A stretch of 55,672 nt of DNA from Kiloniella laminariae DSM 19542 (GTDB taxonomy: Bacteria; Pseudomonadota; Alphaproteobacteria; Kiloniellales; Kiloniellaceae). The stretch's first letter is position 1. Every line of letters starts with the position of its first letter. The notes beneath the pieces were generated by a model that did not search any database, was not told where the DNA came from, and saw only the letters and a list, made by a program, of their open reading frames with translations. Positions 36,956 to 47,649 of this stretch are shown piece by piece. The position numbers and the translations under genes were made by a program. The stretch covers positions 373,092-428,763 of the forward strand of contig NZ_KB893134.1 in NCBI RefSeq assembly GCF_000374005.1. The letters are read 5' to 3'.

Positions 36956-37069
36956 AGTCTGTGGCAATAAAGGCTGGAGGCGTCGGGTCAAAGAGACTCG
37001 GGCGCTTGCCTGTTTCCGGGATTTTCTTTGTTCTGTCCTTTTTTCAGAGCAGCGTGTCAAATTGGTGAT

Positions 37070-37144
37070 GCTAGTGGTTCGATTCCAACATTTGCATCTG
37101 AGCTTGCCGATGAGAGATGCAAATGTTGGAATCGAACCACTAGC
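37070..37144. repeat. Palindromic repeat with 30-base perfect arms (copy 1)
   Basis: Perfect 30-base arms (37070-37099 and 37115-37144) enclose a 15-base loop. The left arm starts CTAGTGGTTCGATTCC and its first 28 bases recur exactly at 47537-47564. It is intergenic, after the aminotransferase gene. There is no open frame or transposase. A TGTCAAATT at 37055-37063 just outside matches the inner part of copy 2. Confidence 0.92.
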
Positions 37145-37343
37145 GGAAATCTTTTTTATGAGCTTGTAATCAAGGCGATCTCTTCATACCTTCTGCTCAG
37201 CCTTAAATTATCTTTAAATCACCATATGATTGTCTTGTTTAAAACCGAGATTTTACGATAATTGTTATCTAATCGTTTGATCGATTGGTGAGGGCGGAGT
37301 ATCAGGACAGGAATGATCCTGAAAGCCATATCGAGAGCTATTG

Positions 37344-37568
37344 ATGAGAGAGTCTTCGCGCATGCCTGAAATAGGTGATGTTTTTTCAAAAAGGGATGCT
37401 TCATATCAGGATTGGGTCGTGACTGAAGTTTACAAATCAGCCATCGACGGACTGATGTATGCCCGTCTGCGCAATAAAAACATTGGTGACAAGTCTGTCA
37501 GCGCTGTTGAATTAACGCGTCGGGGATCTGACTGGTTGCGCAAGATGGCAGCTCCGCCAAAGAGCTGA
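37344..37568 (+). CDS. Small hypothetical protein, paralogue of the gene at 37799
   Basis: This 74-residue cytosolic-looking protein is unrecognised. Its core matches the next gene nearly throughout: IGDVFSKR, QDWVVTEVYKS, IDGLMYARLRNKN and ELTRRGSDW align with VGEVYSKR, QDWLVTDVYRS, VDGVIYARLSNSL and ELLRRGSDW. The pattern GDVFSKR...W.V..VY suggests a compact beta-barrel-like fold, but that is a guess. Two starts are possible: ATG 37344 and ATG 37362 (MPEIGDV), each with a GAGAG upstream. A terminator separates it from its paralogue, so the two are separately transcribed. Confidence 0.7.
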   Translation: MRESSRMPEIGDVFSKRDASYQDWVVTEVYKSAIDGLMYARLRNKNIGDKSVSAVELTRRGSDWLRKMAAPPKS

Positions 37569-37798: not shown

Positions 37799-38104
37799 AT
37801 GGCCATGCTCAAAGCTGTAAAAAAATCGCCAGAAATCGAGAAACTCCCCCAGGTAGGGGAGGTCTATTCAAAACGTACCCGTTTTCTTCAGGACTGGCTG
37901 GTGACGGATGTCTACAGATCTCATGTTGACGGTGTGATCTATGCCCGTCTAAGCAATTCACTGATGGGGGAAAAGAACGTCGGGGCGGCGGAATTGCTCC
38001 GTCGGGGATCTGACTGGAGCCAAAAGAAAACGGGTTCCGGCACCGAGGATCACCAAGCGCTCCCTTCTCTCCAGGCTGATCTGCTGATGGTTCAGGGCAA
38101 ATAA
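37799..38104 (+). CDS. Small hypothetical protein, paralogue of the gene at 37344
   Basis: The 101-residue protein has an extra N-terminal stretch (MAMLKAVKKSPEIEKLP) and a C-terminal tail of about 25 residues compared with its neighbour. The shared core lies at about residues 18-75. No signal peptide or membrane helix is present. Tandem duplication followed by divergence is the simplest history; keeping both suggests selection. It converges on nnrS. Function unknown. Confidence 0.7.
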   Translation: MAMLKAVKKSPEIEKLPQVGEVYSKRTRFLQDWLVTDVYRSHVDGVIYARLSNSLMGEKNVGAAELLRRGSDWSQKKTGSGTEDHQALPSLQADLLMVQGK

Positions 38105-47459: not shown

Positions 47460-47475
47460 ACAGGGGGTTATCAAA

Positions 47476-47519
47476 GAAGCAGGGGGCGGTGTCCTTGGAC
47501 ACCGCCCCCTGCTTCTTTT
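47476..47519 (+). terminator. Strong terminator after the RidA-family gene
   Basis: A perfect 19-base GC-rich stem (GAAGCAGGGGGCGGTGTCC with its complement) with almost no loop is followed by TTTTG on the plus strand. Confidence 0.92.
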
Positions 47520-47536
47520 GTGGTTGATGAAAAGGC

Positions 47537-47649
47537 CTAGTGGTTCGATTCCAACATTTGCATCCCCCACCGGCAAGTTCAGGTGAATTTGACATTTGAA
47601 AACGAACCCGGCCGCGGATGGGATTCAAATGTCAAATTTGCTCCACTAG
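47537..47649. repeat. Composite palindromic repeat (copy 2), ending in the htpG stop codon
   Basis: It opens with the same 28 bases as copy 1 (CTAGTGGTTCGATTCC and on to 47564) and closes with CCACTAG at 47643-47649. The interior differs: a perfect 15-base inverted repeat, AATTTGACATTTGAA at 47586-47600 and its complement at 47624-47638, flanks a GC-rich centre. The two arms share an ACATTTG core. No gene lies inside. Confidence 0.85.

Follow-up and report, generated by a model that had tools for sequence, protein, structure and literature searches.

A perfect palindrome of Kiloniella laminariae as a probable single-hairpin copy of an IS630-type MITE with relatives across the alphaproteobacteria

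Judged by analogy, the nearest established counterparts of the element analysed here are RUP with IS630-Spn1 and the Correia/NEMIS elements. In the parts of the published accounts that were available, RUP of Streptococcus pneumoniae is a geneless element of 107 bp with IS630-like ends and a TA target (PMC2229807), while the Correia/NEMIS elements of Neisseria are MITEs that have long paired ends, terminate in TA and give transcripts on which RNase III acts (PMC10969869; PMC2229807). From similarly partial accounts, ISY100 inserts almost only at TA, which it duplicates (PMC2170065); CIR repeats of Caulobacter and Brucella measure about 110 bp and consist of two inverted repeats and a linker with GANTC at or near the terminal loop, their mobility mechanism being left open in that text (PMC2229807); and IS711 uses YTAR as its insertion site, which in one strain lies inside the 103-bp Bru-RS1 (PMC3163539). 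The family considered below is like RUP in being short and geneless, with ends like those of an IS630-family IS and a TA target; by description it differs from RUP in its two-hairpin full-length form, its offset inner arms, its alphaproteobacterial hosts and the GANTC in its end. Correia/NEMIS, again by description, is unlike it in having one end-to-end stem-loop and a length of about 107 or 155 bp. With IS630 and ISY100 it shares the transposase family and the TA target (CTAG for IS630), but those are autonomous ISs whereas the window element is geneless. An IS630-associated transposon is said, from work by Tenzen and Ohtsubo in 1991, to prefer the TA in CTAG. A literature search of titles and abstract openings, covering few subscription papers, returned no description of the element or of GANTC in IS630 ends. 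The kind (IS630-type MITE) is known; as far as the literature searched reaches, the combination of a two-hairpin plan, offset inner arms and a GANTC in the end makes a new variant.

The window is a stretch of 55,672 bp of the host genome (G000:C1:373092-428763, G000 being the host genome). At 37070 an inverted-repeat scan returned two 30-nt arms, 100% complementary and with 15 nt between them, which agrees with the exact 30-base arms and 15-base loop described in the earlier note. The element proper is 73 bp long and runs from CTAG to CTAG; positions 37070 and 37144 are flanking bases that pair by chance. Folded as RNA, 37060-37155 gives a hairpin of -56.2 kcal/mol (z -10.5), which 0 of 200 shuffles equal. 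The loop has the orientation of the other copies when it is read on the minus strand. The features of the locus are as follows.

37071-37143, minus strand: putative single-hairpin (A-only) IS630-type MITE, 73 bp, CTAG to CTAG, from repeat structure and copy comparison
37070-37099, unstranded: left perfect arm (37070 is the pairing flank), from the inverted-repeat scan
37115-37144, unstranded: right perfect arm (37144 is flank), from the inverted-repeat scan
37071-37074, unstranded: CTAG, outer boundary and target tetranucleotide, from the sequence, the G002 empty-site comparison and the target rule
37140-37143, unstranded: CTAG, other boundary, from the sequence and the G002 empty-site comparison
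37081-37085, unstranded: GATTC, a CcrM site (GANTC) at offset 10 from the end, from the sequence and the position rule of IS ends
37129-37133, unstranded: GAATC, a GANTC at offset 10 from the other end, from the sequence

No intrinsic terminator was found at this hairpin in a terminator scan, its T-tract not lying directly after the stem. The earlier note had likewise denied a terminator, on the ground that no T-tract follows; this second part needs amending, as a T6 run does begin at 37152, 8 nt past the stem and thus too distant for the terminator scan. The same run is present in the empty site of G002 (a congener), so it is not part of the element. In Rfam scans every match stayed under its gathering score, the best (MIR5185, at 37064-37146) reaching 42.2 of 101.7, and with no terminator and no Rfam family over its gathering score the readings of the hairpin as an Rfam RNA or a terminator were dropped. 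The description of the repeat as undescribed stands for its sequence to the extent covered by the Rfam scans and the literature search, but not for its kind, MITEs being known. Close by, at 37341-37568 and 37799-38104, lie two adjacent small ORFs of 75 and 101 aa without a Pfam family match, which resemble tandem duplicates (pattern by eye; DNA self-match).

Copies of the element occur elsewhere in the window and the genome. CTAGTGGTTCGATTCC has three window matches at up to 3 mismatches, all of them exact (expected 0.49), and six exact matches genome-wide. The half-site CTAGTGGWKCRAWTYYRACATTTG, searched with both end types at up to 3 mismatches, gave 12 matches at 8 loci in G000, and the reversed-pattern control gave none. 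These 8 loci hold short (57-113 bp), dispersed, geneless copies with CTAG-bounded ends. The repeat of the first 28 bases at 47537, already noticed before this analysis, is exact over precisely that length (37071-37098 equals 47537-47564). Compared with one another and with the full-length form, the copies read as follows.

47537-47649, plus strand: the other copy in the window, 113 bp long, in which the outer end of hairpin A is joined to most of hairpin B (an internal deletion of the full-length element), from copy comparison
47547-47551, unstranded: GATTC at offset 10, left end of the second copy, from the sequence
47622-47626, unstranded: GATTC in the second copy's right half, at offset 23 counted from the right end, from the sequence
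37070 copy: hairpin A alone
L007 copy: hairpin A and linker
L015 copy: hairpin B alone
L012 and L016 copies: the outer ends of hairpins A and B, the internal junction being identical in both copies
L017 copy: A hairpin, right end out of phase
L014 copy: one end gone

Just before the second window copy, at 47469-47522, AAGCAGGGGGCGGTGTCC and GGACACCGCCCCCTGCTT form a hairpin that is very strong and has T-rich sequence after it; a similar hairpin is also present at the G002 counterpart.

The plan of the full-length element became visible in relatives. G002 carries two 169-bp copies, each made of hairpin A, linker and hairpin B, and overall the full-length element measures 163-171 bp, with two hairpins and a linker of 12-14 nt. 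A 167-171 bp form occurs in plasmids of Martelella, Rhizobium, Aminobacter, Agrobacterium, Sphingobium, Ochrobactrum and Labrenzia, and in contigs of Brucella gallinifaecis, Hongsoonwoonella and Rhizobium sp. SL86; searches of plasmids for the G115 and G426 forms, and for the flanks of the G115 copy, gave no match. In 12 sequences of this form, aligned with MAFFT without structure and with the structure taken from one alignment row, both hairpins are paired in 96.2% of cells, and 25 of the 50 pairs are altered on both sides, that is, by compensatory change. None of 500 shuffles reached any of five covariation measures, and slid structures were 27-42% paired. A covariance model matched 19 of 385 alphaproteobacterial genomes, 15 of them with copies of 163-171 bp (at most 7 candidates per genome were taken, which makes the copy numbers minima); the other four are G000 itself (deletion forms), G115 and G384 (118-123 bp) and G184 (doubtful). 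In Labrenzia and several of the matched genomes the arm sequences are quite different and track those of other subgroups of IS630 (compare CTAGTCACCCGAATCTGAAGTTCG with CTAGTCACCTGAATCTGAAGTTCG, the IS end of L304), with length, linker and hairpins constant. In the folded copies the linker-side arm has 2-5 extra bases in 33/33 A and 32/33 B hairpins; the one B hairpin that departs from this is that of L357, which is misfolded or degraded. The folding set comprised 35 full-length copies, several of them pairs from one genome, from which L261 and L264 were dropped as single long hairpins. The search of the genome and its relatives that had been proposed thus returned 8 loci in G000 and copies in G002 and other alphaproteobacteria, rather than two copies only and none in relatives.

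The termini of the element point to its probable mobiliser. The A end of the 37070 copy agrees with the IS630-family right end CTAGTGGATTGATTCCAACATTTG in 22 of 24 bases (2 differ). Related ISs or parts of them were found, with a same-order transposase as query (E <= 1e-40), in 9 of 61 genomes of the order and in none of the genus, and these ISs read CTAG...CTAG wherever both ends paired well; IS ends were here located from gene position, independently of the half-site pattern. Named genomes scanned with a pattern gave at least 115 stretches; the 80 listed are labelled as alphaproteobacteria or unspecific Proteobacteria MAGs, with one Chlamydiae MAG among them. When 81 ends were examined (the 80 listed loci, among at least 115, and L270), 20 could be matched with a partner end to give complete ISs of 1143-1169 bp; four of these are identical copies from one genome. 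On a Martelella plasmid a gene with such an end is annotated as an IS630 family transposase, and DDE_3 and HTH domains are present in the L047 transposase. With 22 of 24 bases alike and CTAG bounds on both, the termini match IS630-family right ends, and the element is on this ground an IS630-type MITE. Exact patterns for the linker signature and for the A end gave 0 and 0 matches in viral contigs. At L190 and L218 an IS630 end begins at the boundary CTAG of another, MITE-like element, and at L146 a 100-bp element with IS630-like ends begins at the boundary CTAG of another element; these nested and tandem composites look as if CTAG ends had been used as targets.

Of 30 bases compared, hairpin B shares 20-22 with IS right ends but only 16-19 with IS left ends, and deletion of the middle of an IS would therefore not by itself account for the element. 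The idea that the outer end of hairpin B equals the IS left end failed on identity, though both carry GANTC at offset 23 in G000. The host genome has only fragments of other IS630 sequences, and no cognate IS of the subgroup was found at E <= 1e-40 in nine genus genomes (one of them 77% complete); the mobiliser is therefore not resident. Such fragments lie in G000 at the starts of contigs C7 and C24 (L049, L050), which suggests that repeats broke the assembly.

The comparison of corresponding sites with and without the element, another proposal of the earlier note, was made with G002. Among the nine genus genomes (G005 is 77% complete) the half-site occurs at up to 2 mismatches only in G000 and G002, seven of the eight congeners having none. 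G002 is without the element at 8/8 places corresponding to the G000 loci, and a single clean CTAG stands at three of these empty sites, those of L007, L014 and L015. The other five are altered: the site for 47537 reads TTAG, that for 37070 reads CCTG, and three more deviate. The flanks of L012 and L016 align less well to G002, and for L016 BLAST found the right flank only, the left side being taken from the alignment. At L007 the inserted stretch relative to G002 is hairpin A and the 14-nt linker between two CTAGs. As CTAG is its own reverse complement, duplication of TA and duplication of CTAG look the same.

Elements related in form were seen at other sites. Around 1501 in L034 of G028 and L024 of G040, two species carry at one chromosomal site a 42-bp and a ~268-bp related CTAG element, the shorter being what an internal deletion has left, little more than a palindrome. 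In G039, L035, L038 and related loci hold a CTAG element of 100 bp, one end of which contains GANTC, and the same genome has four half-site matches and an intact IS630 with CTAG ends.

We consider that the 37070 element is a MITE that would have been moved in trans by an IS630-family (Tc1/mariner-like) transposase, and give this reading a probability of about 0.88. The earlier note had offered a small non-autonomous mobile element as one of its options, and it is this option that the dispersed copies, the element-free corresponding sites, the IS630-family termini and the CTAG target bear out. The transposase would recognise the end CTA-GTGGTTCGATTCCAACATTTG and excise the element, and insertion at the TA of a CTAG, presumably with duplication of TA, would leave copies that read CTAG...CTAG. 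The full-length form would be about 169 bp (hairpin A, a linker of 12-14 nt, hairpin B), with outer arms spaced like real IS ends and inner arms that are complementary but for 2-5 extra bases, and the G000 copies would be full-length elements shortened at CTAG or through internal deletion. Against this reading stand the empty site for 37070 in G002, which is CCTG and not CTAG, with clean sites at only 3 of 8 places, and the nine genus genomes, in which no IS of the subgroup was found at E <= 1e-40.

The perfection of the 37070 arms calls for an explanation of its own. The right arm of hairpin A is GGTGCAAATGTTGGAATC-(3 nt)-GAACCACTAG in both copies of G002, and L007 is similar; relative to these, the 37070 right arm has lost the 3-nt insert and has one G-to-A change. 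Both differences make the arms complementary, hence the perfect palindrome. Perfect arms might simply reflect youth, a recent insertion with no arm correction, and the absence of this insertion from G002 fits such a history. Yet other copies that G002 lacks have imperfect arms, full-length relatives carry the inner-arm insert, and the substitution and the 3-nt deletion both run towards complementarity, so we regard youth as the less probable account. From the sequence comparison the perfection appears better explained by loss of the arm insert. Conversion of a wobble pair to a true pair, together with this loss, would give 37070 two identical in-phase ends, and template-switch (quasipalindrome) correction may be the simplest route, in one event across the arm; gene conversion or two separate changes could also have had this outcome. 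The earlier note took the intact arms to imply recent spread or selection. The insertions are indeed absent from G002 and compensatory change has kept the pairing in the family, but the perfect arms as such are better accounted for by the loss of the insert. The out-of-phase inner arms may guard against internal cutting by the transposase; L015 and L017 each stand alone with one out-of-phase end, so any inertness of such ends is not strict.

The end of the element contains GANTC, the CcrM site, and we compared this motif among ISs and MITEs. The comparison drew on 33 distinct rows with usable ends out of 65 IS loci, selected for C/G flanks, matching ends and sufficient alignment length. Three of them, L301, L313 and L315, which have a non-C left flank and in two cases also a shorter alignment, were put in by hand. 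Excluded were copies, short alignments and unpaired ends, among them L283 and L289, in both of which GANTC is present. GANTC occurs at right-end offset 10 in 19/23 alphaproteobacterial rows (18/21 genomes) versus 1/10 other rows, or 18/21 versus 1/9 without the three rows added by hand. N is C, A, T or G, the surrounding G, A, T and C being kept in 23, 20, 21 and 23 of 23, and the next commonest gapped palindrome, at any offset, reaches 6/23 rows. At offset 23 of the left end, GANTC is found in 10/23 alphaproteobacterial rows. In the closer ISs the left end has it at offset 23 in 19 of 20 cases, or 16 of 17 when four identical copies are collapsed, with N being G, T or A; their right ends were chosen by pattern, their left ends by CTAG and 8/12 matching bases only, and the set overlaps the 33 rows (L098 and L186 have identical ends). 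Of the full-length MITE copies, 26/35 have GANTC at offset 10 of the outer A end.

On a tree of the 33 rows the GANTC ISs form two groups with other ISs between them, and a single clade is rejected (p-AU 2.3e-15). Simple Fisher values for a link between GANTC and host are about 1e-4 and ignore kinship; the tree offers only three independent host contrasts, one or two of them as expected and none opposed, so that the link is not significant by this test. Of 37 hosts searched, 22 score above the cut-off for RAMA, a domain of CcrM; these are 22/24 of the alphaproteobacterial and 0/13 of the other hosts. It is below cut-off in G012 (weak) and G290 (none), and the IS of G290 is without GANTC; G050 has RAMA and ISs without GANTC, and G547, whose genome is 78% complete, has GANTC without RAMA. 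The host genome G000 encodes CcrM (6pbd, E 1.6e-161), and the GANTC count in the window is low, 112 versus 178 expected.

Any function of the end GANTC site is one that we infer, and the plain alternative is that GA-N-TC is merely a transposase contact, unrelated to CcrM. The transposases of IS10 and IS50 belong to another family than that of IS630. In these two ISs, according to the part of the source available, an adenine-methylation site limits transposase expression (PMC4265352), and they are a Dam precedent for the GANTC idea, differing from it in that Dam and GATC act there and CcrM and GANTC would act here. As a tentative proposal, to which we give less than even weight, GANTC would lie in the transposase-binding end of alphaproteobacterial IS630-type transposons and double-hairpin MITEs, and its methylation after replication would license cell-cycle-timed transposition, a counterpart of Dam on IS10/IS50. 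The same proposal would make the MITEs a single old family of conserved architecture, with out-of-phase inner arms as the guard against internal cutting and a switch of partner via changed ends, in which CIR and Bru-RS may be short members.

That last point touches on the identity of the element, which would have been known since 2003 or 1994 if it were a CIR-type repeat or a Bru-RS. CIRs, in the account available, are alphaproteobacterial and consist of two inverted repeats and a linker with GANTC, a plan that the full-length relatives share, and two-hairpin forms of 118-123 bp were seen, though only in G115 and G384; for Bru-RS one may point to the insertion of IS711 at YTAR, once inside Bru-RS1, as the part of that source available has it. 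Measured against the CIR description in the accessible text, however, the full length here is 163-171 bp and GANTC lies in the stem, not at or near a loop. The 37070 copy, unlike a CIR, keeps one hairpin, and Bru-RS is by description 103-105 bp. We therefore hold this identity to be unlikely.

If host selection maintained a regulatory hairpin or other conserved RNA structure at fixed loci (a processing site, an attenuator or an sRNA), this would account for the strong hairpins and the compensatory changes throughout the family. But the positions are not conserved, the element being absent at 8/8 places in G002 and its half-site (up to 2 mismatches) from 7/8 congeners, no Rfam family attains its gathering score, and the ends match transposon ends; this view is already largely refuted by the empty sites, and we give it very little credence. 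A RAYT-type REP, mobile by single-strand HUH transposition, is a GTAG-headed asymmetric hairpin, and beyond being a small intergenic palindrome the element has little of it, both ends being one symmetrical CTAG inverted repeat, the loci numbering only 8 and the ends matching a DDE transposon, so that the REP-like option of the earlier note falls away as scarcely credible.

With the element read as an IS630-type MITE, an odd palindrome becomes a mobile insertion whose target and transposase family can be named. Beyond this locus, the analysis describes a widespread alphaproteobacterial non-coding element whose two-hairpin plan is held by compensatory change and whose ends follow different IS630 subgroups. 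It also makes testable whether CIR repeats are moved by IS630-type transposases, and it makes a timing of transposition by CcrM, should there be one, directly testable.
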